From: Oryzias latipes
Taxonomy: Eukaryota > Chordata > Actinopteri > Beloniformes > Adrianichthyidae
Assembly (NCBI RefSeq): GCF_002234675.1
Contig: NC_019871.2
Coordinates: forward strand, 14,292,331-14,356,330
Direction of reading: 5' to 3'
Length of the DNA: 64,000 nt
How positions within the stretch are numbered: the stretch's first letter is position 1; each line of letters opens with the position of its first letter. The position numbers were made by a program, and so were the translations under genes. Below the pieces are notes generated by a model. The model had not been told where the DNA came from and did not search any database. It was given only the letters and a program-made list of their open reading frames with translations. Below, piece by piece: positions 2,946-56,440 of this stretch.

Positions 2946-3249
2946 GTACTAACCCGATTCTCCGTGATGATTGGACACCACAGCTGTCTGTCAAGCTCCA
3001 CTTCCTGGTGAACCGGATGTACTTGTGGCGAAAATAAAATTTCTTGAGAGAAAAAAAATCCTTTAAAAAATCATTAAAATGTTATGTACCAGCACAAGAT
3101 TTGCCATTAATTCTGGAATTATAACAGTAGGACGTTTTTACATATTTGCTTTAAAAACATTTTATGTTGAAGTTTATACATAATGCTACTTTGGTAGTTA
3201 CGTACAGAGAAAAAGTGAACAGAATACAGTATAAACAAGTTATGTCCAT

Positions 3250-3263
3250 AAAACAAAACAAAA
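3250..3263 (-). terminator. Pol III T-tract terminators of tRNA-Sec
   Basis: On the minus strand three TTTT runs separated by single G bases follow the tRNA 3' end, the first beginning about 10 bases downstream. RNA polymerase III terminates at runs of four or more T. Confidence 0.8.
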
Positions 3264-3272
3264 CAGCTAATC

Positions 3273-3359
3273 CGCCCGAAAGGTGGAATTGAACCACTCT
3301 GCCGCTAAGCAGCTACGGGTTTGAAGCCCGCACCCCGGACCACCGAAGCTCATCCGGGC
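3273..3359 (-). tRNA. tRNA-Sec (anticodon TCA), selenocysteine
   Basis: An 87-nt selenocysteine tRNA. The minus strand begins GCCCGGATGAGCTTCGG and ends TTCCACCTTTCGGGCG. The anticodon loop is CTTCAAA, giving TCA, which decodes UGA. The long acceptor stem (GCCCGGATG against the 3' CTTTCGGGC), the long variable arm around TAGCTGCTTAGCGGCAG and the T arm GTGGTTCAATTCCAC match the eukaryotic tRNA-Sec layout and its usual 87-nt length. It is charged with serine, converted through O-phosphoseryl-tRNA kinase and SEPSECS, and delivered to selenoprotein mRNAs carrying a SECIS element. Stem pairing is preserved, so it looks functional. The external Pol III promoter upstream, listed separately, supports a live gene. 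Confidence 0.97.
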
Positions 3360-3382
3360 ATTTCGTACAAAGCTGCGTCTCA

Positions 3383-3390
3383 TTATAAAA
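3383..3390 (-). promoter_or_regulatory. TATA box of tRNA-Sec (type 3 Pol III promoter)
   Basis: The minus strand reads TTTTATAA, 24-31 bases upstream of the tRNA first base. tRNA-Sec genes are transcribed from external snRNA-type promoters in which a TATA box at this distance sets Pol III choice. Confidence 0.8.
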
Positions 3391-3403
3391 CCTTAGCAAA
3401 AAG

Positions 3404-3424
3404 TAAACAAGTTAAAGTCATGGT
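3404..3424 (-). promoter_or_regulatory. Candidate proximal sequence element of tRNA-Sec
   Basis: About 45-65 bases upstream of the tRNA the minus strand reads CATGACTTTAACTTGTTTAC. Its position and rough content fit the SNAPc-bound PSE of snRNA-type promoters. The match is by spacing and loose similarity only. Confidence 0.45.
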
Positions 3425-3564
3425 CTCACTGGACACTTTTTCAGTGTGCCAGTTTTATGCATTATAGATTGGTTGTAAATAGTTTAACCGTATCGTAGAC
3501 ATTTAACAATGTTTTCAAGAGTGATAAACACAAAAAGATGATTATTAAGAGTGAACCGTGCGTC

Positions 3565-3572
3565 ATGCAAAT
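3565..3572. promoter_or_regulatory. Octamer (distal element) of tRNA-Sec
   Basis: A perfect ATGCAAAT octamer lies 206-213 bases upstream of the tRNA start, where the Oct-1-bound distal element of snRNA and tRNA-Sec promoters normally sits. A GC-box-like GGCGGGG follows at about 3611. Confidence 0.65.
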
Positions 3573-3784
3573 CGCGATCAATGTGATTGGTTGGATAAAA
3601 ACACATAGAGGCGGGGTCTCGCAGGTGAGACACGGTGGAGAAACGCTGCTTTCTTTCTTTATTCCTGTCGCTGGCACAGAAATCTGAACGAGCTAGCCAA
3701 AACTCATGTTCAGGCAATGAATTTATATTTTAATTTATTTTAGTTGCCAAATATCTTCCACGGTTTAACAGAGATGTAGCCGAA

Positions 3785-3895
3785 CATGCCACAAGGATGG
3801 TTGGTGTGAGTGAGGAGGATGCGGAAGAGAGGGAATTAGATGATTTGATTCGCTGGGGCGACCCCTAATGGACGCAGCCGAAAATCAAAGCAAAA
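3785..3895 (+). repeat. Fragment of a dispersed fish retroelement 3' tail
   Basis: The stretch reads like the widespread fish tail in which CGCTGGGGCGACCCCTAA is followed by a GCAGCCGAAA motif and an A-rich end. I recognise the motif as a common dispersed repeat but cannot name the family with certainty. Confidence 0.5.
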
Positions 3896-4077
3896 AATAA
3901 AACAAATAAAAATTACACTTGTATTTGACTGATTTTATCAAGCAGCAAAAAATCAAAATAAAACTAAATGATTGAGGGTAAAAATATTTCACAGTGCATA
4001 CAATTGTTACTGCTTGGCAACAGAACAGGCAGTTTATTTGATTATTTATGACAACTCAATTTCCCTTTTTAAAGTAA

Positions 4078-4096
4078 ATTTTATTGTATTTTATTT
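4078..4096 (-). terminator. Polyadenylation signals of the ZnT-like gene
   Basis: Two AATAAA hexamers about 11 bases apart lie on the minus strand, roughly 150-165 bases past the stop codon at 4243. This gives the gene a short 3' UTR and supports it being an expressed locus. Confidence 0.6.
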
Positions 4097-4242
4097 GAGT
4101 ACAGTTGTGCAGATAAAACTTGTAAATGAGGCTACATTCATACAAGCAAATATAGAATCTCAGATAATATAGCAAACACATCTTTGAAGTAGCACAAGAG
4201 AACCTTTTCACAGTATCTCAATGGAAAACATCATTCTCACAT

Positions 4243-7059
4243 TTAGAGGCATGTGTTCTCCAGAACCAGAGTTGAAGGCTCTTCATTTGTTTCTCCAGTT
4301 GGTGGTCTCAGCACACCCTGGACCTCCTCTTTAGGAGGAGAGCAACACATGCTCCCAGCACAGGCCTTTCCACAGGCAAGGCTGCAGGCGGGACGGGCGC
4401 GTGGGGATGGGTCCTCTCTGTGGATGATGGGGGAGGCGTCACCAAGGCTGTTGAAGGGGGCTGCAGGACAGGAAATGAACTCCGGCTGAACAGTGCAGCA
4501 GCTCACTCCTACACCCTTCAACACCTTTGAGACCCCTGACAAAAGGTCACCACACCTACACAAAGGAAACATCCTTTTAGGAGTGATGAAAACAGTTTTC
4601 TGGAAAGGTTTTTATTTCTGTTAACATAGACAATCTGGACTGTCTGATCTTTTTGAAAGATTTTTGGAAAAATGCTTTTTAGCTATATCATATAAAATCC
4701 CTATAAATGGAAAATAAATGGTAATGTTACTGAACTTAAAAAATAATCACCTTATTGAGCAGTTTAAATATGCCATACTCTAAAAGAAATGAGCATATTT
4801 TCAATATTAGTTCTCTAAAAATGTTTAAGTTGTGCCAGTTTTGTTCTACAATGCACTTTCATTTTTGTCATTTAGATGACAACAAACCTATTTTGATCAA
4901 AAACATATAACTTCTTACTATGCATTTCTTAACATATAAATAGTTTTAAGAATAAAAGGTATTTTTCCAGTTATTGAACAACTTTCGAGTTCAACAGACA
5001 GAAAAGTGAAACATGCACCACATTTATAGCAGTTTTGGTTCCGTTTTATTTATTGATATGTTTTAATTTATTTTATTATTTTTATTTTATAACTTAGAAC
5101 TCAAAGGGAACCTGGTCTGATGTGATGTAAGCAAACTCAAGGAGGAGCCACTAGGGAGTCTTCCAAACTATTGGCTTGAGTTTGTCCACAAAACTAAGCA
5201 GTGGTTTAATTTTCTGTGGCTATTAAAACAATGTTGTAAAAAATACATATTTTGAACTTTAATTTGAATTTTACAACAGAGCTACACTTCACCTATGAAC
5301 TCGAAAGCCAGAGGAGCAGTGCACATGGACTGAAGCCACCACAAGCCTTTCATTCAACTGCCAGATGTGCAGGTCGTGCACCGCCTGAACTCCTGGCACG
5401 CTCGCCAGCCTGCGAGCCAGGTCAGTCACAGAAATGTGTGGAGGGGAAGCCTGGAGCAGCAGGAGCCCCAACCTGTACAGCTGCACGGGAACATCAGCAG
5501 CTGTCACTTCAGGTTTCAAACAGACCTACATCAAGATTTTTAACAATCAAAGGCTATTATTAAGGTGGACCTGTGGCACAGCTGTGGCAATCATCGTGAT
5601 CACAGCCAGCAGGGAGAGGCTGGGGTCCAGGTACACCAGGACGTTGCAGGCGCCAGAACTGTGCAGGTGCTGTGGCAAGATCAGCAGAGTCACCAGGCTG
5701 TTGATCAAAGCCAGAAGAGATGTGAACAATCCCTCAGTCATGAAGATGAAGGACAGGTGGCAGACTGGCCACTGGCTTCTCGACACAGATGGCTCCAAAT
5801 ATGGAAATGATTTACAGGCTGATGTGGTTTGATGGCCTGAAAGAGAAAAATAAAACCAGAAAATTCTCTTTGAATAAAATCATCTATGCAGAAAAGTTTG
5901 AACAGGAGGTATCATGCAGGTGCTGCATTTAACACAATTCTCACTATTGTCTGCTGAAGGAATCTGCTCTTCACACATGTTTTCTAGTTGCTTCTGTGCA
6001 GTTTTACAGTCACTATCAGGAAGGCTGGAGGTCATTGGATTACAGAGGACCAGCGCTCCATCATGGAACGGCGCTTGGACAGCAAAACGATCTCCTGATG
6101 GGACACCCTCTTCAGACTTCTGTGTGTTTGTGGAGTCCCCCTCAGCCAAGACTGTGGGAGTTGAAGAAAGGAATGAAAAACAAGCATGAGCAGAGTTTTA
6201 TCTCAGTGTCTCGCCGCTGAATTTACACTGCAGCAACTGTCACTGCAAAGGCAACCCAAATTGTTTCTAAACATAATTTACATTTTTTTCCATCTAATGC
6301 AGTTTTTTAAGATGAACACTTTTTCCCACAAAAATTAAGGAATTAAACTACAAAAAGACAAAAAAAAAACAATTTCCATAAAGTGGATTTAGCATCCTTT
6401 TTACACAAATTACCGTTGTGATTTATTTCCAGGTGGGACTCAGTCTCTGCTTTCCTGTTTCTCTGGGCCCAGTGGTCCTGAGTCCAGTTCAGCACGAACA
6501 CCGTCAGCTTACAGAGCAGACTGACAGCCCCGATCACTACGGGCAGCAGGGGGTGCTGCACTGGGTGTGGTTCCAAAATAAAGCTGATGATTTCCATGAA
6601 GTAGGAAATGCACAGAGACACCAGGAGGAGAGAGGAAACAAACCTGCCCACAGCTTGTATCCTGCTGTTGGTGTAGGACAGACTGCAGTTTGTAGATGTC
6701 TGCAAAGCTTTGGGGGATCGGGATAGGTGTGTGTTGATAAAAGACGCTTTCTGGTTGCCCTGATCTGACAAAGATGACTCTGCGATCAGAGTATTGACAG
6801 GTGACTCTGCACATGATGTGTGAGCAATGGCAGTGAAAGAAAGGGGGATGGATGGTGGAGAGGTAGAAAAATCCAAAGGGGACAATGGAGGTTTAATGTT
6901 TGTATTTTGAGGAAGAGGAAGCACCATGTGAAGGAGGATAAAGAGTGTGTGGAACCCGTCCACCATGGTGATGAGGGACTTGCACAGCTGACTGATGGCA
7001 ATCTGGCACAATAGCAGCAGCAAGCTCGCTCCCAGCATGCAACAGTTCGGGACCCACAT
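4243..7059 (-). CDS. ZnT1/ZnT10-like (SLC30 family) membrane protein with degenerate zinc site
   Basis: Cation diffusion facilitator homologue. Minus-strand exons 6414-7059, 5945-6151, 5571-5836, 5293-5480 and 4243-4555 join with consistent phases (1, 1, 0, 2) into 539 uninterrupted codons. TM1-2 (CMLGASLLLLLCQ to VDGFHTLFI) aligns without gaps to ZnT1. Then come a roughly 70-residue Ser/Thr/Pro-rich insert (about 52-124), TM3-4 (with ILEPHPVQHPLLPVVIG), a loop without His runs, TM5 (313-337), TM6 (YLDPSLSLLAV), a cytoplasmic domain (VPGVQAVHDLHIWQLNERLV), TVQPEF and a Cys-rich tail. The family zinc site needs HxxxD in TM2 and in TM5. Here TM2 has His37 but Ile41, and TM5 has neither residue. 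Transport is therefore doubtful; a partner role like that of ZnT6 is possible. The start was chosen by ZnT1 alignment; the frame stays open upstream to 7176. Donors at 5944 and 5570 are weak. Confidence 0.82.
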
Positions 7060-7189
7060 GCCTACAACTATAAGCACAACACACATCAAGTTAGCTTTAT
7101 AAGACACACTTAAAAATGATCTTAAAAACACAATTTCTAAATGAACAGCAGAGATAATGTAAACAAAATTGTACAACTGAGCACTCCAG

Positions 7190-7703
7190 ATGACATTGGG
7201 ATCTGTAGTGAGAACAGGGAGCAGGCGGAGGAGCAGTTAGAGAGGTGAAGGTTTGATCTGGAATGGAGAGAAATGATAGTAAATCACAACAAGACAGAGT
7301 ATCTATGAGTAAACGAGAGGAAGTCGAGTGGAACAATGAGGCTACAGCCTACAGGGAGTAAAGGTGAAGAAGGTGGAGGACTTACTTTAGGTCAACAGTC
7401 CAGAGTGTGGAAAAAAAGGTGAAGAGGCATGGGCAACGAGGTTGGAGCAAATGGAGGAAGGTTTCAGGGGTGATGTGTGACAAATTAATAAAAGAATGTC
7501 AGCAAGAATGATATGAAAAGTGTCGAAGACTCTGGTGAGACAGTGCATGACTGAGAAAGAAACAGAAGGCAGAGGTAGCAGAGATGAAGTTGAGATTCTC
7601 TTTGGGAGAGTTAAGGATGGATGAGATCAGGAATAAATCCAGCAGATGAACAGGTCAATGTTAGATGTTTTGGAAATAAATGCAGGTAAGCAGACTGAGA
7701 GGG
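7190..7703 (+). mobile_element. LINE remnant, upstream part (reverse-transcriptase C-terminal region)
   Basis: The plus strand reads like the C-terminal coding part of a fish non-LTR retrotransposon: GCAGGCGGAGGAG, GTGAAGAAGGTGGAGGA, TTTCAGGGGTGATGTGTGACA, then TTGAGATTCTCTTTGGGAG and TTAGATGTTTTGGA. Translation gives fragments such as LRFSLGRVKDG broken by stops and frameshifts, so it is dead. I would guess an RTE-like clade, but this is not certain. It ends where the hAT element inserted. It starts only about 130 bases upstream of the ZnT-like start codon. Confidence 0.65.
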
Positions 7704-7711
7704 TTTGGACC

Positions 7712-8213
7712 ATATGTGTCTAACTCAGGCCCATTGACCCGCAGTGTAATTATAATTGGCCTGCAAATCTCATCAAATGTGCATTAGAGCTGGCCCGCGG
7801 TATATACTGTACTTCTAATACTACAAATTCCAAAATGCTTTGCTAGTACGTTGGCGTGCAGACGGAAAAGGGCAAGCACTCCTTTTTTTCTGTTGACGTC
7901 ATTGCTCCAGTCACATCTGGCAAATTAATTTCACTCTCCACAAAAATGGCCAAATAAAAGATGGACAACAGGAGCTTTCAAGACAGGGGAAGGCAGATTA
8001 CCTGTTCACGAATATAAAGACAGACCTGTTTGTCTTGTGTGCGGAGCTAACGTGATTGCAACAAAAGAATACAACATAAGAAGACACTAAATGAAAAGGT
8101 TAAACATTTCGTATCAGTTGGAGTTAATTTTTCAATAAATATTGTGTTTGGCCCGTGACTTTACTTCACTGCTTAATTTTGGCCCACTATGAATTTGAGT
8201 TTGACATCCCTGG
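7712..8213 (+). mobile_element. Non-autonomous hAT element with 8-bp target duplication
   Basis: TTTGGACC occurs at 7704-7711 and again at 8214-8221, the 8-bp duplication expected for hAT. The ends are imperfect inverted repeats: GTGTCTAACTCAGGCCC at the left and, read inverted from the right, CAGGGATGTCAAACTCAAATT. Inside, about 7950-8095, lies the decayed start of a transposase with a BED-type zinc finger (residues like RPVCLVCGANVIATK followed by EYNIRRH). The ORF stops soon after, so the copy is internally deleted. It sits within a LINE remnant, so it is the younger insertion. Confidence 0.85.
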
Positions 8214-8221
8214 TTTGGACC

Positions 8222-11150
8222 TGTAAAGACCCTGGGGCCTACATGCATGGACATCACATTTTGGGTTGTATAACCACAGTACTGTAGTTAATTCTGCTAT
8301 CAAAGCCCAAATAGGCAACAGTCGACATACAAAGATTATTTAGGAATATCTTTATTGGGTTTTGTTTGTGCCAACAATGTGTTTTTGTGTCCACTGTCCG
8401 TGTCTTTGGTCCATTGTTTCTGCCTGTGTTGTGCTGTCTATGTCTACTGAACATGTTAATCGAAAAATCATGTCTATTTTCTCACGCTCTGCAGCCTTTT
8501 GTTTGGGATTTAACTGGTATCTTCAGAGTAGGACTCAGTTGATGAGTTTAGAGCACAGAACATTGAAGATTGCAGCATTTTTCCAGCAGTGGTGGGTCTA
8601 TATGCACACAAGCTGACTGTGATGCAGGATTGCAGTGCATGTTTTGGCAGAAATTAACACATTTTCAGAATTTGGTGGCACAAGATCTCAGCACTGCCTC
8701 AAGTTTAGATTCGGCAAGAGTAATATGATAAAAAAAATAAGCTTTTTTTTAACTCAGTAACATATTTCAGAACATGTATTGTAGGGCACAAATGACAGTT
8801 CACCTTTTTATGGGAAGATATACTTCACATTTGTTTTAAATACTTTCAGAAATGACAATAAATGTTTTGAATCTATCATCGTTTTTTTCAAACTTAAGGT
8901 AAAACAAGAAAAAAGCTCTTTTGGCTTTTAAATTTGTCATTAAGAACTTATTAAAGTTACATTTTAATACCCTGAGGTTTGCTCAGAAAACCTGATATTC
9001 TCGTTTTGTAGTTTTTAAGAAACTAAACTGTTACAAATGGTTAAACTTTTTAAAAACCTTTTATCCTTATAGAGGTTCTTCTTACCAAATAAACACTCTA
9101 CTAAAATAATTGTAAGTTTTTATTAAAAATCTGGATTTTGAATAAAACTGTCAGTTATCCCCCTTACAAAGGTCAGGTTATTTTGGGTACTTTTTTAATC
9201 TTCTGTTCTACATCCTTTGCCTGATTTTTGTTTTTGGTTTGTTCTCTGTTGGAATTCTAAGTCTCGCATTCAGATCTTACAGTTAATTACAGTACATTCA
9301 GAAAAATAACAGTCTGTGTAGTTTAGATGTAGAACAAAGTTTAGTTACCGCAGAGAAGTGGACACCCCTCACACAGCGATCAAAGGGAAGCTGGAGCGCT
9401 GCGGCGTTATCAGAAAAATGAACTTCATGATGTTTCCCATCGCTGTCCCAGTGTCCCACACTCCTCCTCTGCTCTGCCCTCATCATGTGAGCAGCCAGGA
9501 GGGTTTCTGTTTGCATTCCCTCCTCAGCATGCTGGTGGGACAGAATCCAGCCTGATGCAGCTCACACACTTTTCATGAGCCGGCCTAGTGAAGCTAATGT
9601 GCACTAATTAAACCCTCCCTATGCTGTCAGGATTAAAATGGGATTACATTTCAGGATTACACTGAAAAGTGAGATCTAAGATTTCTGAGGCCCCTCCATA
9701 ATGCCATTGATTCCACCTTATAATACAATCTAAAAAAAAAAAGAGTGAAAGAAGACCATTTACACAGTGCATTAATGTAGATCACAGTTATGTAAGCAGT
9801 CGTTTTATGTTAAACACGTTCATAAATCTTATGTGATTCCTGGATTTGCTCCACAGCTCAGCAGAGGCATAAATGCCAAGTTTGTCTCTATCTTTTCAAA
9901 ATAAGAGACATTTTTAATGAAACCAAATTTTTTCAGAGATATACAAAAATGTTTCCCAAAAAGCAATGAAACTTTTTTAGATTCTGACTTCCTCGTGATT
10001 GTATTTGACTAATTTCAGTATCAAGTTATCATCTTTCATTCTTTCATTTTTGTCCATCTTGCAGTACTTACTTTAAATTTGAGTCATAATAAGTAATAAT
10101 CTTATAGATTTAGTCAATTTTCAAAAGGAAAACAGTTCAATTAGTTTTTCTTTTGCTCCATAGGATCTGAAAGTTAAACAGAAGAAAGGTCATAGGGGGC
10201 TTTGTTACCTTAACTGTTAACCATCTCCTCTCTGCTGCAGCCTTGCAGTAACTGCTGTCACTTGAAGTACTGTAAAACTCTGTGCTGTGGTGGACCCACA
10301 CTGCTGGCTGCTCATGATGCTGCAGTCCCTTGGCTCCCATGCGTGTTTCACTCCGCTGGGCTGTGAATCAACAGGTCAGATACGGGCTGACACCCCGGCG
10401 TAATCCCTGTTCCAACTTGGTGCCAGCACATTCCTGAACCACAGCTAAATCTGAGGAAAGACCCGGCGAGGAGGAGGCATTGAAATGCTGCTGCCGCCAA
10501 ACGAAAAGAACGGAAATCAATCTGAAACCTAAAGACTCTCTCTGTATAGTATTATACATGTAGATGTACGAACACATTGAGAGATCACAGAGAAATTTCG
10601 TTTGGTTTCTAAAGAAAACAAGCAGTATCCAATACAATTTCAATACCAACCTTTTGTTTTTTACCATAGACTTTGCCATGTAGTAAAATAATTTTCCAAT
10701 TTTTTAGCAGATAAATATAATGATTAGTAGTTTTAGTTGGTTGAGATTCTCTGCTTCTGTCATGGGTCAATATCACCATAAGGTGCCTTTGAGACTTCCC
10801 AATATCCCACCAAAAAATATGAGATTTCCCATTTAACTTCACATTTATTGTGTTAGGTGGATGCTGTGCTGTTAGAAATGCATGTTGGTCAAGATCCCAC
10901 ACCTTTTACAAATTAACTGCAAACAGACAATGCTTACACCAAAGAAATATAAACCCTGCCATGGACAATTTCAGAGTAGATTAAATACATTGTAATTAGA
11001 TCATGGATATAAAATTTATATTTTCAGAAAGCGATTTAGTCCCTTTGTCAAAACTGTGTATTAGCTAATAAGAAAAGTACTTTGATAGTAATGAAATTAA
11101 GCGCAAACAATTTTTTACTATACAAAATCAGCAAGAATTACACTTTCTTT
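8222..11150. other. Intergenic stretch, no gene recognised
   Basis: AT-rich sequence with two somewhat GC-richer patches (about 9350-9560 and 10340-10510). Open frames are short and show no family resemblance. The only notable structure is the homeodomain-type motif cluster at 9605-9660, listed separately. Confidence 0.5.
9605..9659. promoter_or_regulatory. Cluster of homeodomain-type motifs (three GGATTA plus TAATTA)
   Basis: GGATTA occurs at 9630-9635, 9641-9646 and 9654-9659, all in the same orientation and 11-13 bases apart. TAATTA lies at 9605-9610. GGATTA/TAATCC is the core bound by OTX, CRX, PITX and GSC proteins. A role as an enhancer is inference from motif density only. Confidence 0.3.
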
Positions 11151-16934: not shown

Positions 16935-17325
16935 CATTCATTCATCTTCTTAACCGTTTATTCCCTTTCGGGGTCACGGGGTTGCCGGAGCCTATCCCGG
17001 CCACTTGGGCGTAGGCAAGGGATACCCTGGACTGGTCGCCAGTCTGTCGCAGGGTGGAATATCCTTATCACACATCCATTCACTCTCACACTCACACCTA
17101 TGGACAATTTAGAGTTGCCAATCAACCTATGAAGCATGTTTTTGGACAGTGGGAGGAAGCCGGAGATCCCGGAGGAAACCCACGCATGCACGGGGACAAC
17201 ATGCAAACTCCACACAGAAAGGTCCCCCATTGATGTTGTGTTTTTCATGTCCCCCAGCCGGAACTTGAACCGGGGGCCTTCTTGCTGTGAGGCAAGAGCG
17301 CTAACCACTGCGCCACCGTGCAGCC
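16935..17325 (-). mobile_element. tRNA-derived SINE with L2-like tail, 14-bp target duplication
   Basis: Read on the minus strand, the element starts GGGCTGCACGGTGGCGCAGT with a tRNA-like A box (TGGCGCAGTGGTTAGCGC) and B box (GGTTCAAGTTCC). It ends with the fish L2-type tail: GACTGGCGACCAGTCCAGGG, GTGACCCCGAAAGGGAATAA and an ATGAATGA repeat. The 14-bp CTGATTCATGAATC flanks it exactly at 16921-16934 and 17326-17339. The intact duplication indicates LINE-driven insertion and a fairly young age. A close relative lies at 34740-35132. Confidence 0.92.
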
Positions 17326-17398
17326 CTGATTCATGAATCAAGATCAACAATTCACAGATCAAACCAGGATTTTTACTGTTTAATCAAAATATTTCTTA

Positions 17399-18503: not shown

Positions 18504-20191
18504 TCACACTGCGTCTCTTCCAGACTCCAAGCTGGCTTCTCGGAGCAGCTCCTCCAGTTCCTGTTCACCGTCAGCACTCGCTGCAGGAGTAACACCCGAC
18601 ATAACTTTGTTAACGATGTTCACCAACAGAAAGAGCTGTGCCTGTTCCAAATGATCTACGAGAACTCACCATGCTCCATCACGCAGTTACCAGGCTTTGG
18701 ACTTTCACTGCTTAGAAGGTGGACGGCAAACTCTGGCTTCAAACCATTAGGTAAAGCTGAGCTCGCCACGTTTTCCTCGAGAGCATCGGCAAAGCCCTCA
18801 TCTGCAGCGACCTCGTTAACGCACTTCCCTTGTTCGACCACTGAAACCGGACTCCCTTCAGCTTCAGATGGAGTCGAGGTGAGGTGGAGGTTCTGCGCTT
18901 CTTCGTGGGGGACAGACGCCTCAGACTCTCCTTCCTGTTCAGCAGCCTCTGCAGGCTTTGGCCATGACTCCTCGTTCTGTGTGGGTGAATGTGCTGGTGC
19001 TTCCTGCGTCTCTTCCTGCTGTGGAGGTTCCTGGTCGGCTTGGTTTGATGGGGAGGTCTCCTCTGATGCTTGATCATTCAGAAGAGCAGATGATAAAAGC
19101 TGCTGCTGCTGCAGATCCTGAGGTTGGTTCATTTCCTCCATTTTGCTCAGATCTTGTGCGTGACTCTCCTCTTCTTTAATGTCATCAGGTTGGGGGGTCA
19201 CAGACGTACCTGCACCTCCCTCTGCCAGCTGAGAGGTCGCAGACTGCACTGATGCAGAATCTGAAGGCAGAGCTTGTGTTTGGAGACTTGGCCCTAAAGT
19301 TCTGGCTGTCCCGTCCTCTGTGGGTCGGCTTGCTGGCTGGGATTCTAGTTTGCTGGTGAGTGTAGTGTTGGACTCTGATGTACTCTGCTTGGTGCAGAGC
19401 GCAGAAGCAGCAGCTGAGCCCTGGTTCACCTCCTCGCCCGTCAGCTGTGTTTGCTCAGATGTGGGAGAAGAAGCTGGAGGTGGCGTCTGCTGCGTCGCAC
19501 ACGAGGGTACGTCTGCAGCCTTCTGTGAGGCCGCTTTGGTCAGGATGGGAGCTGCAGGGTCATTTTTCTGTTGTGGCTCAGGAGGGCTTTCCACCCTGGT
19601 GACCATAAAAATCTTGTGACCTCTGCCCGGGCTAGAGACAGATATGCAGCGCCCAGGAGAGGGAGGGGTCCCAGTAGGAACTGTGGCTTCTGTGACAGTA
19701 ATGCCAGAAATGACACGTTGTCCTGCAGCAGGCGAAACAGCTGGGTGTGAAGAGGTACTTGAGGCACTGGGGGGAAACTTTGCAGCTCCTGAATTTGACT
19801 GAGGAGCAGTCTGACTCTGGGCAGTGGAGTTTGGAGCGGAAGAAGACTTTGTCACCTCCTCTCCGTCATCCTCGTCCTCAGTGTCTGAGTCAGACTCCAG
19901 ATTTGGTGCAGGAACGTTTTTCTCTGTGCTTCCTTCAGCCTGGCTGCTCGCCTGTCCCTCGTTTCCTGAGATTTCAGCCTCTTTATTTCTTTGCTCCCTT
20001 TCATCTGATGATGGCAACTCCTCCTCCTCTTCTTCTCTGGTCCCATCCTCTGTAGCGATTTCAGCCATAGAGGTAGACAGCCTCATCTTCTGATCGAGCT
20101 CCTCCTTCTCCTTGGCAAGGATGAAGTTTCTCTTGCAGCCATTTTGGATCTCAGCTAGCAGGGCGCGCTGTGTCTCTATGAAGCTCTTCAC
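18504..20191 (-). CDS. ppp1r37: ppp1r37 exons 11-12: acidic low-complexity tail and C-terminus
   Basis: Exon 11 (18670-20191, 507 codons) begins VKSFIETQRALLAEIQ and then turns into Glu/Ser/Pro/Gln-rich sequence with runs such as EEEEEELPSSDEREQ and LQQQQLLSS, predicted to be disordered. Its donor is GTGAGT right after codons for CVMEH. Exon 12 (18504-18580) adds a short helix-like end, GEQELEELLREASLE, and the stop. The open frame on the opposite strand across exon 11 is a shadow of this biased composition. Confidence 0.9.
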
Positions 20192-23100
20192 CTGACATTG
20201 GGACCAAAAAAAACAGTACATGAAAACTGTGGCAGCTGCTTTAGCCCAGATTTCACTTCTGTTTGTGCTTCATTGAAAAAAAACCCCAAAAACTTATTTT
20301 GTGATCCCTTAAAGTCCCACTCCAATCCTCTTTTGATCCATTTTAAAAGCATTCACAGTACAGTTTTGAGCCAGATCCCAGCTTGAAAAAGGAAGATGAA
20401 GATGTACATGGATGCACCGGAATGGAACGCAGCAGAGGCCGTAGTTTGCCCACCCTTGCTCTAAGCCCTACATTCAGTAATTAAAGGCTATAAATAATTA
20501 AGCAAAAAAAACTGATTGTAAATGTTCGTGTCTTTCTCACTTTGACATTTTCTCTGCTATCGTGAAAGTAGAGGCTGTACTGAGACAACCTCTAAACCGA
20601 CTTCTGCCTGAGCCAAGAGCACTTCAGCAGTTCTCAGTCTATTTCACGCCACTGACTGATTTCATTAAAAAGGACTTAGGGTAAAATGTAATAACCACAA
20701 CAACTGAGGGGATTCGGTGGACAAGGTGCATTGTGGGAGTTCACTTTTTGTTAACCTTTTTTTTTTAACTGTTCCAGTTAAACTATTTCCAAATATGTTG
20801 TTCTTTCTTTACATTACCTTTTCTTCTGTAATGACTTGTCTTTCATGGCTTCCTTCATTTTCACTGCTGTTGCTACAGCTGCTTTCAGAAAAGTAAAACA
20901 AATATATAAATAAAAAAACTCACAGTTTCCTTCTTGGGCTCTCTGTCTAAATCGAGACGCAGCAGAGACGTGTTGACTTTCAGGGCGAGTGACAAAGCCA
21001 TCAGGCCGCCAGTCTTTATCTCATTCTCGCGAAGGTCCAGACGCAGCAGCCTCGGGCTCTCTGCAATGAATTCTGCCACAGCCACGGCTCCTGCAGCACA
21101 GTAAACAGAGGCCAGAAACATTAAGAATCAGTCCAAGGGCAGCAAATGTACATGTGAACACACACACAGACACTACGTCCAACCTTCACAGGAGAGCTTG
21201 GTGGAGGCGAGGCCCAGTCTGAGCACAGAGCGGTTGGCAATCAGTCCGTCTTTCAGTTTGTGAACTCCTTCATTGCTCACAGAATTGTGGCCGAGGTTCA
21301 GCGTCTCCAAACTTTGGGTGCACGGCTGAGAGGACAGAAATTTATAATGAAGATAAACAACATAGTAATACATAAAAATCTTGCATAACGCATAGAGGTC
21401 ATTTAACAGTTTCCCAGTAGGAAGGCTCATGTAAAGCCTATCCAGAGGCAGAACAGACTTCTCTGTATTTAGATGCATCTGGGATTCCTCACACAGATAA
21501 AACATGATCCCTGAATATACAAATCAGTTTGCCAGATTTGCTTAAGAACAACCTGACAACAGGGAAAAAAACCAAAACCCTGATGGGTGATGGTATGAAG
21601 CCAATATCCATCTCCATAACAACATGTCTTCGAATAAAGGAAAACCGATTTTTGCCAGTTTTTTTTTTTTTTACGGAGACTGAGAGAACTCTGAAAAAGA
21701 AACTTTATAGAATGACTGTTAAGGTAAAGGAAATGCCTATATTTCCATGGAAGCAGTATAGTTCACGTGTGAAACAAAATTTCCACTTTATTTGGAAGGA
21801 AAAGTAAAATCTGCTCCCATATGTTCCAATGGAAGCACTGGGTTTTACATCTCAGAGTAAATGAGAGTTTTAGGGTCCTACACAAACATTTTCCAAAGTA
21901 TCCATCAGCCTTAATTCTGTTACAATAAGGTCATCCCATCAATAAGTAGGTGGTTAACTGAGGAAAAATAGGATGACAGATGGGTTGCATTTACACTGTA
22001 AGCTGTCCGGGAACCAAAACCAGATGTACTGTACTATCAGTTAAATCTACAGATAACATTCATCTTCCCCTGACAGAGCAGAGTTTAATTTACATGCTCA
22101 TCCACACTTTTAGTGTGTACGTACTACTTTAATATGCTTTCCAGTGTGTGAATGTAGAGACGCACTGTTCGACACAAATCAAAGCATGAAAACTAGTTTG
22201 TGCAAAAAGGGGGTAACAGGTCTGTGGGACAGTATTCTTGCTCGTTTGTAGCAGCTTCATTTCTGCACCATCATACAAAGCCATCATTTGAAAATCATGC
22301 AACATAATTTCCTGGTTTCTGTTTGAAGTGCATCGATGATGAACCAGACCTCTTTCGTCTTTTTAGTAGGAACAACTTGCAGAAATACTTTTTTGGAACC
22401 CTGTATTTGTATGCTGATGTTGATAGTGATAGCTCTGACTGACTGATACATCCGCCAAAAAATTATAAGGATAAGCAGAAGCTGCTTAAGAAGAGAAAAA
22501 ATAAGACATGGTACAAGTTGACAGCTGATCTTTACACAACCACATATAAAGTGAGGTTTTTCCTCTGAAGATTTCTGACAAGTTTGTGTTTTTCTGTGCT
22601 TGTCATCATTACAGAAACCTCCTGAGTGCGAGTGTGTGTGTAAATGAATACCAATGCAGCAGCCAGATAGCCCATGCCACTGTGTGTGAGCTGGTTGTTC
22701 CATAGCACCAGAGTGACGAGGCCTTTCCTTTGCTCTTTTAGTCCTTCACACAAGTAAGCGAGACCTGTGACAACAAACCAAAAGTTTGTGTCAATCATTA
22801 TTTATTAGAGGATGAATCTGCACTTTCCATTTCATTATTTTTTTCCCCCCCGTCAATAATTTCTACTCTACTTTTTAATAAACTACTTGACAAAACAAGA
22901 ACTGTTGCACATTAAATACGGCATCTCCCCAACTGAGCTGGTGGCTTATCACTGATACATACCAGAGTCTAAAATATGGTTATTGCGCAAGTCCAGAATC
23001 TGAATGTTGTAGTTGAACTTAAGCAGGTTGCCAAGCTGGGCTGAGTCCTGAAGGCCGTTGAGCTTGTTGTCTGCTAGATACAACTCTCGCAGATTCATGT

Positions 23101-32100: not shown

Positions 32101-35100
32101 CAGCACCAGAAGTTGTTTACACAAGTTAAACTCTGGGGTAATTTAAGCAAACCCATGACAACACTCCACATCCTTCTAGAGAAGTAAACGGATCAGAGTA
32201 TGGCTGGAGGCAAAAATGAATTCTGGGAGAAATAAAACGTAGATAGCAATGAATAACTTACATCTTCATCCAGGTTGGTCTGCTCCAGGTCGACCGTTTT
32301 AAACTGGACTCTCTTCAAAATTTCCTCCAGAGACTCGCATGCTTTGTAGTCCAGTTTTTCACCTGCAGACAAACAGCAGGTCTGATGTCATATAAAAAAA
32401 AAGGCAGTTCAGGAAATTATTCCATTACAGAGGAAGAATGTGTGTGTACTGAATGACCCTAGTTTCAACAGGACTTACATTCTCTTGTAAAAAAACCTGT
32501 GGAAACATTTTGTATCTTTGACAAAAAATCTGTCCTTACTTTTTTCTGTTATTGCATTTCTATTTACTTACCTTTCAAATCCAAGCATTCATTTCGCAGG
32601 GTAAGGTCTTTAAGTTCCTACAAAGAAAAAAACGGGTTTCATTTTGTGAAAGTAATTTAAAAAAAAAAAAAAGTCCGTTTTCTATTATGAAAGTTTCAAG
32701 CGAAGTAAAAAAGGGAGAACAGTGGACAGACTCAAATGTTGCATAGTGGGACTAATCCGTTGGTTTTCTGGTTACTGTGAACATTTTTTGAACCTGGTAC
32801 ACTATGCAAACATGTAGTTGTAGTGTTAGATAAGGTAATTTTTCGTTAACAGTCCTGGTATATTGTCTGTCCATCCTGGGAGAGTTTCTCCTTATACAGA
32901 AAGAGGTTCTAAGGGTAGGGATGCCCAATTTAGTTTACTCTGTTTAGTTTAGTTTAGCACTTAGCTAATGTATTTTATAACTGATTTTATGTTCTGTACA
33001 ATTAGCGAAGCTCATTGAGACAACTGTGTTTTATTATTGGGGTGTATAAATAAAATGACTTGAATTAACCTCTTGATGACTATTACTAATGCAAGTATGC
33101 GTCAAATCACTTCGGCTCCAAAATCACCATAGCATCTACTTATAAGCTATAAATAAATTCAGGCGTCAAGGGGTCAATCAACTAAGGAGGAAAATAAAAT
33201 GCCTATCATTGATTGAAAAATATAATTTTTGGATAATTGAAGTTGCCCGTTTGTTACACCTCTAAAAAAAATAAAAAAAATAAATAACACCTCACCTCCA
33301 GAAGTGTCAAACAACACCCTGTGGTTTTGTGTGACCACACACTGGAAACATAAAGTGCATTAGAAGGCAAAATAGGATTTTATTTTCCTTAAACTTAGAC
33401 AGGGATGTCCAAGTAGTAATTTATCTTTGATAACATCAGAAAATTTACGTGATTCTCAGGCATCTTATCCCAGATAAAACCTCCACCCACATACACATGA
33501 ACAGTGTGTTGCCCTCTAAACTATACTAAAGCAAATTCCTGCCTGGTTCATTCAGCATGAACTCCATGACCTCTCCCTGACCACTTCACTGTTGCAGATG
33601 AATGTTCTGTAATGATGATGGATGCAGACTGAGTTGATGGCCACTGGTATGACTCAACAGATCCCAAGAACATTACGTGATCGGACAATTGCTGAGTCTG
33701 AAAAGGCTGACTATACTACCAATGAAAAAGGCTATAGTACTGCATGACAGAAGTAATAAATATGGAAGATTGAAAGATCTAATTGAACAAAAATGTAATT
33801 TACGTGCAGTTTTATGATTTCTTTTCTCAATCTACTTAATGCTTATCCCCTAATTATTATTTAGTAGAAGTAAGAGGGTTGAATGCACTGAAATATAATT
33901 TTTTGAAAGTTATTTTTGCTAGACTGTTTTTGTTCTTTCCAAAGCACACTTACAGGAACGCACATTTGACACTAATAATTCAAGACTTAAGAGCCTGTAA
34001 CAAATTAAAATATTTGTTGAGCTAGAAAAAAATATTTTTGGTTTTGGTTTTTGTGTTGAAAAGAGCAAGAATGTATTCTTTATTTTTCTCCTAAGGATAA
34101 ATGAACTTTTTGGAGCCAAGAAGTGCTATTTTCATCTTAAAATTATTGGAATATTAACTATATGCACATGTAGAAAGCAGCATCAAAAGGTGAATGATTA
34201 GCAAAACTCAATTATTGATGCCCAAAAAAGAAAGATAATAGACAAACAGAGTTACATAGCTTGCATCTCAATATATTGCAGTTACTTTAGAACAGGGGTG
34301 TCAAACTCATTTTCACCGAGGGTCACATCAGCATAGCGGCTGTCCTCAAAGGGCCAGATATAACTTATACCTGTAACTAAATGTAATGAAAAATAAATGT
34401 CCTTATTGTTAAATAACTCATTATTTATGTATTATAACTTTTTAAAGTGACAATTACAGTTACAAAGAAAACATGTTTGCTTGTTACTCTAGCATAAATC
34501 CTTTTAATTTTTTTCTGCATATATTATGGTGTAACATTTTACAAAAAAGGCTGCACACAGCCTTGCATCCAACTGATGGTTTGATGACAACAATTTCTCT
34601 GCATATACACATAAGAGTTGCAAACATTGAATAATCACAACTGCAGCTACACATAAATAATATGTTATCAACTAAAAAAACTTTTTATCTTAAGAAATTA
34701 AAAACTTTTATGCTCTTGCGGGCCTTGGGTTTGACACATTCATTCATTCATTTTCTTAACCGTTTATTCCCTTTCGGGGTCACGGGGTTGCCGGAGCCTA
34801 TCCCGGCCACTTGGGCGTAGGCAAGGGATACCCTGGACTGGTCGCCAGTCTGTCGCAGGGTGGAATATCCTCAATCACACATCCATTCACTCTCACACTC
34901 ACACCTGTGGACAATTTAGAGTTGCCAATCAACCTATGAAGCATGTTTTTGGAAGGTGGGAGGAAGCCGGAGATCCCGGAGAAAACCCACGCATACACGG
35001 GGAGAACATGCAAACTCCACACAGAAAGGTCCCCCATTGATGTTGTGTTTTTCATGTCCCCCAGCCGGGACTTGAACCGGGGGCCTTCTTGCTGTGAGGC

Positions 35101-38100
35101 AAGAGCGCTAAACACTGCGCCACCGTGCAGCCCACATGTGCTTTAGAACTACATTTGCCTCATGAAAAATGTTTTTAAGTGGGAACAAGCCGCTCTATAT
35201 TTTTAGGCGCTTTATCTCATCATGAAGACATGGCTGCTCAGAATAGTTTGAAGAAGATTTAAAACCTGGTGCCACATATGTAGGACTAAACTCCAGATAG
35301 AGCATTAAGCTTAGGTGCATACAAGGCGCAGATTGTTAATGACAACCTCCTGGCCAAAACAGAACTGCAGAAGCAGAAATGTTGCACAAGGTTGCCAAGT
35401 GTCCAAGTTTTACGACTTTTGATTGGAGTTATTGTAGAGCTGGCATTCAACACAATGCCGCTAAATAGTGCTCCTGCTAAGCAAAAAAAAGGTACCGGAA
35501 TATAGCTTTTCTGACCACTGGTAATTTAGAGTATGCGACATCTTTTTTGAATTGTTAAAGAATGCAATGGAGAGATAAACAGGGACAACAGCTCCTCAAT
35601 ACTCTTACTGCACATGTCCTGTAGTCAATTTAGATGGCTAGTTTTTCTAAGAATAACTACACCAATAGATTTCTCTACTTCTAAACAATGATGCTGATAA
35701 GTCAGGTTTTCAAGCACAGAGAATAGGATTAACCTATCTTAACCTCACTGCAGTTGAGGATGCAATCATGTTATCTGCTTCGGCAAGCCCATTTTCATCT
35801 AAGCCCATTTAAACTTTGTGCACATTTAACCTGATTCAGCTCTCTGTTTCTTTTAATCCTGTTCATAAGCTGTTACCACAGCTCATTCTGTTCTATGTGG
35901 TGATATAAAGAAAACTCCAGTTTTTAAGTTGAGTCAGAAGCGGACAGTACATGTTTTAGTACAATTCATTTGGATTCTGTATCAAGTATGTAAATAGGAC
36001 AAATGTTGGTTAAATAAAATTTAAAAAAGCTTTATATAAAATAAGATCAGAATAAAAATGTATTCAGAAAGACCTAGCCATAACCCAATTCACAGAGATT
36101 GTTGATGATTCTAGGACATTTTAAATAAAAAGGAACAAAGAATTTGGTGGAGAATCACAAGGAGTAAACTGCTGCTGTAATGTGAGCTTCAGCCACCAAC
36201 CACATGTTTCCAGAACACACTACAGACTTCAACTGTAGTTTTTGTTTCTGTGTTCTTCAACCAAACACAACATCAGTGGCATTTTAACTGAGCTACTGTT
36301 GATGAGTGGCTCTTTTCAGATTTAATAGGATTTTGCATTTATTTAAGAAACCAAGACTCTGCAATCTGGCAGGGGAGAGAACATGCCTAAATTTCAAGTT
36401 TGATATGGTTCAGTGCAGTTACTGAGAAGCCATGTCATTTGATATGAGGTGTGAGTGAGACATAAGATCCAGCAACACAAAAGAGATACATGCTCAGGGT
36501 AGCATGGACTTTGACATACTTCAGCACAACTCATTGCCCCATGCCATACTGCATTGATCAGCAGTTCAATTAATGCAAGCCCCATTCACATATTGAGTGT
36601 TACATTCATACAATAGTTATATTTTTCCATTGTCTAAAATGTAAATTTTGAAAATTATTTGAGTAAACCTTTACTTTTCTGAGGTATTGAATGTTGGATT
36701 TTTTTTTAGGCAGCAAATTATAATAAAAGACAAATTAAAACTTAAAATGCACAGTCTGTGTATAATAAATGTATTCTAGCAATCCTTTGTGAACTAAAAC
36801 ACTGAAGTAAATATTAATACATTATAATTTATCAATATCAATATTCTTTTTTGTCTCTTCCTAAAAAAAACAGTTTTTTAAACAATTTAAACACCAAATT
36901 TGTAAGATTTTCTTGCCTTGGATGCTGTCTGGCTTTAAGAATTTTTGCCATTAGTTCTGGCCCTTTTTGACAGGTGTTCTAATGGACTGCAATGACTTGG
37001 CGGCATTACCAAATTAAAATGATTGGTGCCAAAAATCATGAGTTTAATAATCCTTATTATTTTAAGCAGCTTTCCAATTAAAGCACATAATAACAGAAGA
37101 CAAGGCAAGGCAAGGTAAGCTTAAAATAGATTTAAATAAACAACAAAAAATTATATGAAGAGTTCAAACTAGCCTTATAATAATCTACCTGAAGATATGG
37201 TACAAAAGGCAGAGAATAATGGTGTCCTAAAGTGTCCTAACAGAGGAAAGTTCCCAAGATAAAAGAAAAACAAAAAGGAAACAAGACACAATAATAACTA
37301 GACCAAGATTTCAAAGTGCCTTATCTTCTGAGAAGTCAAAATTGGGAAAACATCTCTCTAGAAAAACCCAGGGTTCACTGTTCAAGTTAACTTTCCTTGT
37401 CTAGTAAAATTGGGCTACAAGTCAACAGATAAATAATAAAACAAGAATTAGCGCTTCTCCTTCCAAAGCTTGACATTTCTATTTCTACACCGTTTAAAAA
37501 ACACATCTGATATTCAGGGGAAAAAAGACAAAAAGGGTCAAATTTTCTATGTGTAGAGTGATAAACAAGGGACTACTGTACTAGAAATCTTCTGAGTGTG
37601 TGATTACATAAAGCACAAAATTTGCAAAACATACAAAAAGAACCCCAATAACTTCCCTCTTCAGTTAAAAAAATTGCTTAAGTCAAGGGATTACAGGGCA
37701 CATGACTGTCCTGGCCAGCCACAATAATGAGTTACATAAAAAGGTCAAACTCGTGATGAAGCTGAATCCCCTTTTTTATAACATTGCCTTCCATCTGATT
37801 AAGGAATTTTGGAATTAAAATGTAAAGATAGATAATTTGTTATGTGATAAACTTGAAACCCAGACACAATTTCAAAGATGATTTTTTGGTGGCATCATTG
37901 ACTTCCCTAATGAGTTTGTGAATGCTGTAGCGTCTCAGGTTTCAGACGTTGAATATTTTAGTTTTTTTTAAAATGCGTTTTTTATTTTTACCCAGAATAA
38001 TTGGAAATACAATTCAGAACACACATGCATCACTGAAGGATCCCCTTGTATAATTGTAAAAATTCCCATTCCCATTGATTATGAATTTCAAACTGATTCA

Positions 38101-41100: not shown

Positions 41101-44100
41101 AAAGGCACTCAGAAACTAGGAGAAACTGACCGGCTTGTGGTCTTGGTAAGCCAGTCACAATTTTAACAGTAAAGACTTTGAGCAGTGGGGTTGGCAGGAC
41201 AAGTTGCAGCAAGAAAGGCATTGCTAAGATATTGAAATAAGCCAAAGAGGCTTGCCTGGGCTCAAGAACAACACCACTGAACTACTAAAGACTGAAAGAA
41301 GGTGTCACGGAGCGATGACTCAAAACTTTAAATCTTTGGTTCATTGTGCAGAACTTGTACTTTGTCAAAATGACTTGAATATCATGGAACCGTTTGGGAA
41401 TGAACTGGAAAGAAGAGTGAAGGAAATGCAACCAACAAGAGCCAAGCATTTATGAGAACTTCTGCAGGAGACTTGGAAAGAACTTTCTGATGAATCCTTC
41501 ATAGATGCTCAAAGAATAAAGTCACTATGTTAAACTGTTACGTGCACAATAGACTACTATAATAAATTAAAAATACAAGTGTATTTTACTCTACAATTTG
41601 ATTTAAAGACTTATTTGTCAGTCCAGTAGCTTCTTTGATTATTTAATTTCAGAGTAAAACAAGACAATACAGAGAATACTGGAAAACATTGCATTGTTTC
41701 CATATCAATGATGTTTGTTTTTAGACCATTAGACTTTTGTTTATGTGCTGAAAATAATTTGAATAAAAATTATAGCATGAACAAAGTTTATTATTATTTT
41801 AATTTGAGAAGTGTTTTGACAGACTAAAATTAAAAAAATAATATAACAAGAGATTTTTTGTGATGACTTCTTGAAATATGACATCAAAAAAATATATGGT
41901 GCTTTAATTATTGGAGGCCAATTTATTGTGCAAAAATGACTCTTATGATATTTTTGCTAAAATATTGCAGTCTTCACATTGGGACAACCTTTTCTTTAGT
42001 ATTCTACCAAACCTTTGTAGACAGAGCAAGAGGTTATATTTATATTACTCATTATTATTATTATAAAGTGTTACATTTATTTGCACCTTTTTGTTATAAT
42101 ACCTGATGTCTAACAAAATTACTAAATTGTAACAAATATATTAGTAGAAAAAAATTCAGTTCCACTTTTGTTTGAAAAAAAAAACAATACTTATGAAAAC
42201 AACCAAATGCATAAATGTCTGACAGAAAACTTAGTTAACCTTCCTATGGTGTTAGGGTCCCTACGGACCCGTTTTGAGTTTTAGCATGCATAAAAGTACT
42301 TCATACATTTGTTTTTTGCGCTGAAACTTTTTGACTTTGTCAGGGACTTCCATTTGAACAAAATAAAAGCTTTATTATTTTTTTTACGAAATTATAAAGT
42401 GCGCTGATGAAAAAAATGACTTTTGTGGTCTTCGGGTCATTTTTGACCCGGTTAAAATTTTCGATTATAAAACAATAAAAAATGACAAAAATGAAATCAT
42501 AAACACAGAATCAACCAACAGCCTCTTCCTCCAACCACTTGAGCTTCATTTAGGGGCTTTTCTCCTTGCCTTTTTGTGAGAACAAACAATGGGAGAGACT
42601 TGTCAAGTCATTTGAGTGTAGAGGTGGTGACTTGCAGAGTAAACATCTCCAATTCACAGGATGCAACAATAAGGAGAAAATTCAATGTAAATGAAGTTTT
42701 GGATCAAATATTTCTTGCAAATGAGGCAGAGGACACACAGGATTTTTGCGATGGAGATGAGCGGGCCGAGCTGAGAACGAAGATGATGTGGAGTACCAAT
42801 TGGAAGAAACAGACACAAGTGATCAGTCTGCAGAGGAGGTCACTGGTGCTGAAGCTACTCCTGCTGAATCATTCCAATCCAAACGTGGCAACATCCGTTG
42901 GAGCACAGTTCCTCCTGATGCACATGGAAGGACAGCTGCTGCAAACATCATCAAAATGACCCCTGGGGTCACGAAGTGACAAAAAGCCCATAATCATCCT
43001 GGACTACAACAAAAATAAAGGAGGAGTGGACAACCTGGACAAGCTTACTGCCACCTACACTTGCCGGCAAATGACCAGGAGATGGCCAATGGTTGTGTTT
43101 TACAACATCTTCAATGTGTCTACATACAATGCATTTGTGTTGTGGACCAATATTCACCAAGTGTGGAATTCAACCCAAAACACCAAGCGGAGAATGTTTC
43201 TTGAGGAGCTCGGGAATGCCCTTGTCAAGCCACACATTGAGCAACAGGAACGGGTGCCCCGAGCTCCGGCTGCTGCAGACTTGGTCAGACAGCTGCAGGG
43301 GTCCCAAACAAGCCATCCACATCCACAGCAACAAGAAGAGCATCAGCATCACCTTCCCCCTCAGAAGCCAGCCCTGCCTCAAGCACTCCAGCCACAGCCA
43401 CAATGCCAGTGAGACCACCTCGCTGAGAAAGAAAGAGGTGTCAGGTCTGCCCTAGCAATATGGACAGAAAAACCTACAAAGTGTGCTTCACCTGCAACAC
43501 TATGCAGTGTTGCAAGAACACACTAAAAGTGTAACTTTTTGCAACACGTGCATCTAAACACACACACAGGCATGTTGTTTGCACAGAGTTTTTATAGAAC
43601 AAGTACTTGATCTCTTTTGGTGTGATTTTCTTGATTGGTTGTTGTTTATTTGACTTTGCAAATCTTTGTTTTATTGTAATTTTTTATTTTTTACGACTGT
43701 TCTGTTTTTCATATTGTTAAATATTGTATTAAAGTTCTATTGTGTGGAAAAAAGACTTGTTTTTGCCCTTTTCTTGAAGTAAATATATACGGGTCAAAAA
43801 TGACCCGAACACCATAGATGTTACTATATTTGATAATATTAAAATTAAAATCTTTTTTTTGTTGAACATTTAAGAAATGTGTTTTAATTTCTCTTAGTAA
43901 CACTCAGGTAACAGAACAACTGATTATTTTGTTGCCTTCTTCTCTTAAGGTTCATTTGACCACTTTTTAGACATTGAAAACAAGGGGTATGCTGTTAAAA
44001 ACGAAGGCCCAGGGGGCCAAAAAAAATATTAAAACCAATCTTTTCATGGATAAGGGAGCCCAACCATCTAAACAAGAGTTAAGAAAAACTTTGGATGATA

Positions 44101-56010: not shown

Positions 56011-56427
56011 TTAAAACTCTTGAGACTGGACATCTTTGGCAGCGCCGTCTTCTTTCGAACTGTTGGTCTTCTTTGGGAGTAGGCTTGCATGGATGTTGGG
56101 AATTACACCACCATCTGAGATTGTGACTCCTACAAGTAGTTGACTTAGTTCCTCATCATTCTTTACAGCCAGCAAGATGTGGCGTGGCGCTATACGCAGC
56201 TTTTTGTTATCACGGCTTGCATTTCCAGACAGTTCCAGAATTTCGGCACAAAGGTACTCAAGGACAGCGGCGAGGTACACTGCAGCTCCATTGCCAATTC
56301 GCTCTGCATAGTTTCCTCTTCTTAACAGCCTATGGATACGGCCTACTGGGAATGAGACCCCTGCTCTGGAGGAACGGGACACTGTAGGTTTTTGTTTAGG
56401 GGCTGCTTTTTTTCCTCTGCCAGACAT
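56011..56427 (-). CDS. Divergent H2A.X-type histone ending in SQEF
   Basis: A core histone H2A variant of 138 residues, single coding exon. [10 protein letters not shown] leads into [20 protein letters not shown], the fold helices ([35 protein letters not shown]) and the acidic patch (Glu in [15 protein letters not shown]). The C-terminus is SQEF, the SQ(E/D)-aromatic motif phosphorylated by ATM/ATR/DNA-PK in H2A.X. A Phe end matches the H2A.X-F form described from frog eggs and fish. It is more diverged than usual: [20 protein letters not shown] against canonical [20 protein letters not shown]. A 5' UTR intron (56441-56534) has an acceptor TTTCTACTCAG before GTTTTAAGAATG and a donor GTGAGT. 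Confidence 0.9.
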
Positions 56428-56440
56428 TCTTAAAACCTGA

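Follow-up and report, generated by a model that had tools for sequence, protein, structure and literature searches.

A medaka gene of the ZnT1/ZnT10 group with an intact frame and a dismantled zinc site

A 64,000-nucleotide stretch of the medaka (Oryzias latipes) genome, hereafter the window (contig C13, NC_019871.2, positions 14,292,331-14,356,330), carries a five-exon gene of the ZnT1/ZnT10 group whose reading frame is open throughout and whose predicted product retains one of the four intramembrane zinc ligands. This ZnT1/10-like protein still has six predicted hydrophobic segments and a cytoplasmic domain. We lean, tentatively, towards its being a working non-transporter, which would have lost the zinc site together with zinc/proton antiport and would act through its retained domain. 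Both the loss of transport and the expression of the gene are inferred.

Gene model and zinc site

The five coding exons join with consistent phases into 1620 nt, corresponding to 539 codons and a stop (Table 1). The earlier note on this DNA, made from the letters alone, had described an intact five-exon frame of that length over exactly the same interval, and the model confirms it. No stop or frameshift marks the gene as a pseudogene, and the chance of 539 stop-free codons at the local base composition is about 9e-10. On a home-made scoring matrix, introns 1, 2 and 4 have donors of 3.0, 1.4 and 1.5, and the intron 3 donor reaches -4.2. The exon 3/4 junction is credible because it is gapless in the alignment with ZnT1 and because retention of intron 3 brings in a stop. 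With a score trained on 1261 codons, codon usage is higher in the exons read in frame (0.06 to 0.40) than in the introns and upstream flank (-0.48 to -1.07), but this score mostly reflects composition, since the reverse strand is equally high in some exons.

Table 1. Features of the ZnT1/10-like gene and of the remainder of the window (positions are those of the window)
Feature	Position	Strand	Remarks
ZnT1/10-like gene	4243..7059	-	five coding exons
Coding exon 1	6414..7059	-	start codon, TM1, TM2 (DGFHTLFI), long TM2-TM3 loop, TM3, TM4
Coding exon 2	5945..6151	-	hydrophilic TM4-TM5 loop without His-rich run
Coding exon 3	5571..5836	-	last part of TM4-TM5 loop, TM5 (SFIFMTEGLFTSLL) lacking HxxxD, short TM5-TM6 loop, TM6
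Intron 3	5481..5570	-	90 nt, weak donor CAG/GTCCAC (slash, exon/intron boundary); in-frame stop if retained
Coding exon 4	5293..5480	-	initial portion of the cytoplasmic dimerisation domain, with HDLHIWQL
Coding exon 5	4243..4555	-	remaining cytoplasmic domain with TVQPEF, then Cys motif CSLACGKACAGSMCC and stop
Selenocysteine tRNA gene	3273..3359	-	anticodon TCA; lies downstream of the ZnT1/10-like gene, at a distance of about 0.9 kb
Transposase fragment	42960-43412	+	Pfam DDE_Tnp_1_7, E 2.4e-8
Reverse transcriptase fragment	46001-47134	-	377-codon frame; Pfam RVT_1, E 3.7e-19
Histone H2A frame	56011-56493	-	Pfam Histone_H2A_C, E 1.7e-17

Six Kyte-Doolittle peaks of at least 1.79 (residues 8, 29, 144, 172, 320 and 350) predict the six-segment membrane topology; a seventh, weak peak (1.33) lies at residue 440. 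The loops differ markedly in length from those of Slc30a1a, the product of the canonical medaka slc30a1 gene. The earlier note had the His-rich TM4-TM5 loop as missing. The His-rich run is indeed gone, but the loop itself is present and long, with 121 residues and 6 His compared with 91 residues and 10 His in Slc30a1a. Two differences absent from that note are a TM2-TM3 loop of 82 residues (19 in Slc30a1a) and a TM5-TM6 loop of 16 residues (45 in Slc30a1a). Within the stretch coding for the TM2-TM3 loop, exon 1 may harbour an optional 225-nt intron that preserves the frame, with candidate donor and acceptor in phase at nt 135 and 360 of the exon; its removal would yield a shorter protein with unchanged ligands. 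Among the eight GT sites of this stretch, the best donor score is -0.6 and the others are at or below -3.3, using the same home-made matrix, on which the accepted donor of intron 3 is itself no higher than -4.2.

According to passages of PMC11549101, the intramembrane zinc ligands of ZnT1 are His43, Asp47, His251 and Asp255, one passage printing His252. We mapped these positions in a MAFFT alignment of the ZnT1/10-like protein with medaka Slc30a1a, human ZnT1 and human ZnT10. His43 is kept, whereas Asp47 is replaced by Ile, His251 by Phe and Asp255 by Gly. The HxxxD motif of zinc-transporting ZnT proteins thus reads HxxxI in TM2 and FxxxG in TM5, and a one-residue slip of the TM5 alignment brings a Glu to the Asp255 position but still no His. 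Reading the letters alone had suggested an Ile as second TM2 ligand, a TM5 devoid of both the His and the Asp of HxxxD, and a single remaining ligand of the four, all of which the alignment bears out. With three of the four ligands gone, the protein should not carry zinc, and zinc export by it is very unlikely.

In the first 14 kb of the window, low-stringency tblastn searches with ZnT1 and ZnT10 detected no spare TM2- or TM5-like exon. By eye, none of the five HxxxD matches in the three minus-strand frames of positions 4000-10500 is in a TM2- or TM5-like context. Cryptic TM2 or TM5 exons bearing HxxxD were thus rejected for the stretches searched. Seven further SLC30 loci from the medaka genome were examined, and a motif scan revealed HxxxD in both TM2 and TM5 at six of them; at the seventh, on contig C10, the exon coding for TM2 was read and harbours the motif. 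No ZnT6 locus was identified among the medaka SLC30 loci examined.

Relatives, lineage and genetic environment

The relationship to ZnT1 and ZnT10 proposed in the earlier note was corroborated by several searches. The best matches among solved structures are SLC30A1 (E = 4.3e-22) and the manganese exporter SLC30A10 (7.4e-21), with SLC30A3 well behind (4.6e-8); the SLC30A1 match is just 4 bits above that of ZnT10. The Pfam families Cation_efflux (30.3 vs 26.6 bits) and ZT_dimer (30.6 vs 26.7 bits) score above their gathering thresholds. The CDF superfamily signature TIGR01297 stays below its cut-off (59.9 vs 82.35 bits; E 2.4e-16), and the NCBIfam models added nothing specific. Among viral contigs, 270 pattern matches gave no confirmed relative.

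In the genome assembly searched (734,051,031 bases in 25 contigs), the closest relative of the ZnT1/10-like gene is the canonical slc30a1 gene, slc30a1a, on contig C24 (E 2.6e-14), which adjoins a kinase gene that we take to be nek2. It has two coding exons and codes for a protein of 475 residues with all four ligands, and therefore zinc export is presumably covered. A human ZnT10 query found slc30a1a first (E 2.2e-30) and then the ZnT1/10-like gene (E 6.8e-5); weaker matches on contigs C12, C3, C11 and C4 were taken for other SLC30 members. No separate slc30a10 was detected with this query among the best candidates, which were those scored. This agrees with a table in PMC4281218 that lists one SLC30A1 and no SLC30A10 for medaka.

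Identity of the ZnT1/10-like gene with a separate slc30a10 was rejected, on the order of the ZnT10 matches and on the introns. Those of human SLC30A10 lie near codons 252 and 319, as inferred from variants reported in PMC6517356 (a deletion of exons 3 and 4 starting at c.757, and the splice variant c.957+1). Those of the ZnT1/10-like gene are elsewhere, upstream of TM5 and at the equivalents of about 298 and 360. They do not match slc30a1a either, which has one coding intron compared with four here. The ZnT10 signature, an Asn in TM2 together with Asp, His and Asp, is absent from the protein, and the SLC30A1 features, namely the best relative and a ZnT1-type tail, are present. In a four-taxon tree, a basal or ZnT10-side placement is best (AU p 0.86), compared with 0.089 for a grouping with slc30a1a and 0.20 for one with human ZnT1, neither of which is rejected; this is weak evidence because the branch is so long.

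Our preferred assignment is that the gene possibly belongs to the slc30a1b lineage, since carp SLC30A1b-1, as described in PMC4281218, also has five exons. PMC3944790 gives zebrafish Slc30a1b an identity of 54% with human ZnT1 across the protein; for the core of the ZnT1/10-like protein the figure is 25-32%, which is a different measure. If the two are orthologous, the erosion would therefore be younger than the zebrafish-medaka split. Among the matches listed in searches of the open-access literature on teleost or medaka SLC30, slc30a1b and ZnT6-like or pseudo-transporting SLC30 proteins (titles and abstract openings), none describes the ZnT1/10-like gene.

As for the genetic environment, Pfam assigned no family to a neighbouring frame that we take to be MRPL28-like, nor to the frame at 18656-20269, and gave a sub-threshold leucine-rich repeat at 21173-21523. 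Another neighbouring frame is presumably PPP1R37-like. As a whole, these surroundings presumably resemble human 19q13.32 and not the region around NEK2 in which SLC30A1 lies. A Rel homology dimerisation exon begins at position 1001 of the 6-kb segment that adjoins the window on its left (C13:14286331-14292330; Pfam RHD_dimer, E 2.5e-24), with RelB and RelA about equally close. The distribution of zinc-response element cores is uninformative: two occur in 3200-10500, at 7854 and at 8603, each of them upstream of the start codon, 25 occur window-wide, and four occur within 2 kb ahead of the slc30a1a start codon. Elsewhere in the window, the transposase fragment is presumably piggyBac-like, and the very similar translated stretches at 16958-17383 and 34798-35142 (-) appear to be copies of a dispersed repeat.

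Pattern of erosion and neutral simulations

The branch leading to the ZnT1/10-like gene is about ten times longer than that of slc30a1a (1.46 vs 0.14 substitutions per site). Worked out by hand from the branch lengths, the speed-up relative to the ZnT1 pair is about 6.9-fold for the TMD (columns before residue 335) and 3.5-fold for the linker and CTD. For a finer view, we defined as invariant the sites identical in slc30a1a, human ZnT1 and human ZnT10; the Fisher p values below are uncorrected for several comparisons. TM5 is the most eroded part of the protein. It keeps 1 of its 17 invariant sites, whereas the other helices together retain 22 of 61 (p 0.016), and its invariant sites are kept less often than its variable ones (p 0.034). 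The pattern is the reverse in TM1, 3, 4 and 6 pooled, where invariant sites are kept above variable sites (p 0.019), and in the cytoplasmic domain (14/28 invariant sites kept; p 0.022), which is itself strongly diverged, being identical to slc30a1a at 28 of 78 positions. Invariant and variable sites do not differ significantly for TM2 and TM5 combined (p 0.17) or for the whole TMD (p 0.26), and neither do the invariant sites kept in the whole TMD (23/78) and in the linker and CTD (18/37; p 0.061). Thus, TM5 has lost the old map of constraint, which the rest of the protein has partly kept.

We then simulated neutral evolution starting from a single living paralogue, slc30a1a, without selection and to target identities fixed beforehand, 0.27 for TM1-4 and 0.35 for TM5-CTD; the former is slightly lenient, since the observed TM1-4 identity is 0.24. 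The simulated sequences acquired on average 3.5 stops in TM1-4 and 4.5 in TM5-CTD, about eight over the core, whereas the gene has none. Only 31 of 1000 runs for TM1-4 and 13 of 1000 for TM5-CTD were free of stops. The mean hydropathy of TM1-4 and of TM5-6 exceeds that of all 400 neutral runs. Replacements are also more conservative than under neutrality, with none of 400 runs as high for TM1-4, and P values of 0.0075 for TM5-6 and 0.0175 for the cytoplasmic domain. The fall in polar residues is weaker evidence (P 0.05 for TM1-4, 0.015 for TM5-6 and 0.10 for the CTD).

The zero stops, the hydropathy and the conservative replacements led us to reject a purely neutral decay of a ZnT1-like ancestor. 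It is therefore probable that the greater part of the divergence accumulated while frame and membrane character were under selection; a late relaxation of selection may have followed. Of the view in the earlier note that selection kept the fold and the cytoplasmic domain, the retention of a membrane-like hydrophobic profile and of the domain is borne out; that selection kept the fold is suggested by these neutral simulations.

A slowly decaying redundant duplicate is a somewhat unlikely alternative, but the strongest one. Constraint would have been relaxed chiefly at the metal site, and the frame would be open owing to recency or weak residual selection, with no dedicated new function. The long branch, the erosion of every domain, the weak donor of intron 3 and the presence of canonical slc30a1a are consistent with this. 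So are the runs of partial neutral divergence, which are often stop-free: 210 of 1000 for TM1-4 at 0.6 identity, 513 of 1000 at 0.8, and 102 of 1000 for TM5-CTD at 0.65. According to passages of PMC8706747, zebrafish slc30a1b single knockouts are viable and reach adulthood, whereas in the severe slc30a1a and slc30a1b double knockout the pharyngeal arches fail to differentiate. A duplicate that is dispensable alone may simply decay. Nevertheless, 539 codons without stop or frameshift, together with hydropathy and replacements beyond neutral expectation, make a wholly neutral decay unlikely.

Possible roles and comparison with known transporters

In the working non-transporter that we tentatively prefer, six hydrophobic segments, a cysteine tail of the ZnT1 type and the cytoplasmic dimerisation domain of CDF proteins are still encoded, and this domain would provide the means of action. 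The protein could be a non-transporting partner, for instance pairing with Slc30a1a, whose export would be lowered or relocated; the identity of this partner is speculative. Alternatively, it might perform a transport-independent function of ZnT1 through its cytoplasmic domain. The ZnT6-like heterodimer role suggested in the earlier note may be envisaged by analogy. The more specific proposal that a dedicated non-transporter arose in the fish ZnT1/ZnT10 group independently of ZnT6, with its CTD under selection, and tunes Slc30a1a or signals independently of transport, is in our view rather unlikely. The sequence features are compatible with a partner, a scaffold or a decaying duplicate alike.

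It is improbable that the protein is a transporter with an altered site or substrate, using other residues such as the TM5 Glu or His and Asp elsewhere. The TM2 His is kept, the TM5 Glu is one residue away from the Asp255 position, and ZnT10 illustrates that a change of ligand can alter the metal (passages of PMC10932157). However, the ligands have become Ile, Phe and Gly in a protein whose TM5 has hardly any of its invariant sites left, and replacement of His43 alone by Ala is reported in PMC11549101 to have cut ZnT1 activity by 70%, Asp or Asn being tolerated there. Least probable is an error in the gene model, with other exons restoring the zinc site in the true transcript: the model is built on splice consensus and homology and includes one weak donor, but the TM2 and TM5 codons are interior to exons, the exon 3/4 junction aligns without gap, and the searches described above yielded no alternative exon.

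If the ZnT1/10-like gene is expressed and constrained, it would represent a natural separation-of-function ZnT1, with which the roles of ZnT1 besides zinc movement could be tested in a laboratory fish, and a second SLC30 pseudo-transporter besides ZnT6, in a different subgroup. Should it be a decaying duplicate, it would exemplify a transporter whose metal-site helix erodes faster than the remainder. As to the former possibility, the title of a paper cited in PMC11549101 describes transport and inhibition of the L-type calcium channel by ZnT1 as separable.

With ZnT1, the new protein shares the CDF domains, the cytoplasmic HDLHIWQL and TVQPEF motifs, EPHxxQxPL after TM3 as in human ZnT1, and a Cys tail of identical spacing (CELACRTQCALKQCC in human ZnT1, CSLACGKACAGSMCC here). 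In contrast with ZnT1 and slc30a1a, the zinc site and the His-rich run are gone, the TM5-TM6 loop is shorter, the TM2-TM3 loop is longer and the neighbouring genes differ. The short TM5-TM6 loop is reminiscent of ZnT10, which has no His-rich loop either (passages of PMC10932157), but the ZnT1/10-like protein has His43 where ZnT10 has Asn, and the other three ligands are missing. ZnT6, described in passages of PMC7949119 and PMC10932157 as devoid of zinc-coordinating residues and serving as partner of ZnT5, is likewise a CDF protein that has lost its site and kept its cytoplasmic domain. Nevertheless, ZnT6 belongs to another SLC30 subgroup and its partnership is established, whereas the partner of the ZnT1/10-like protein is hypothetical.
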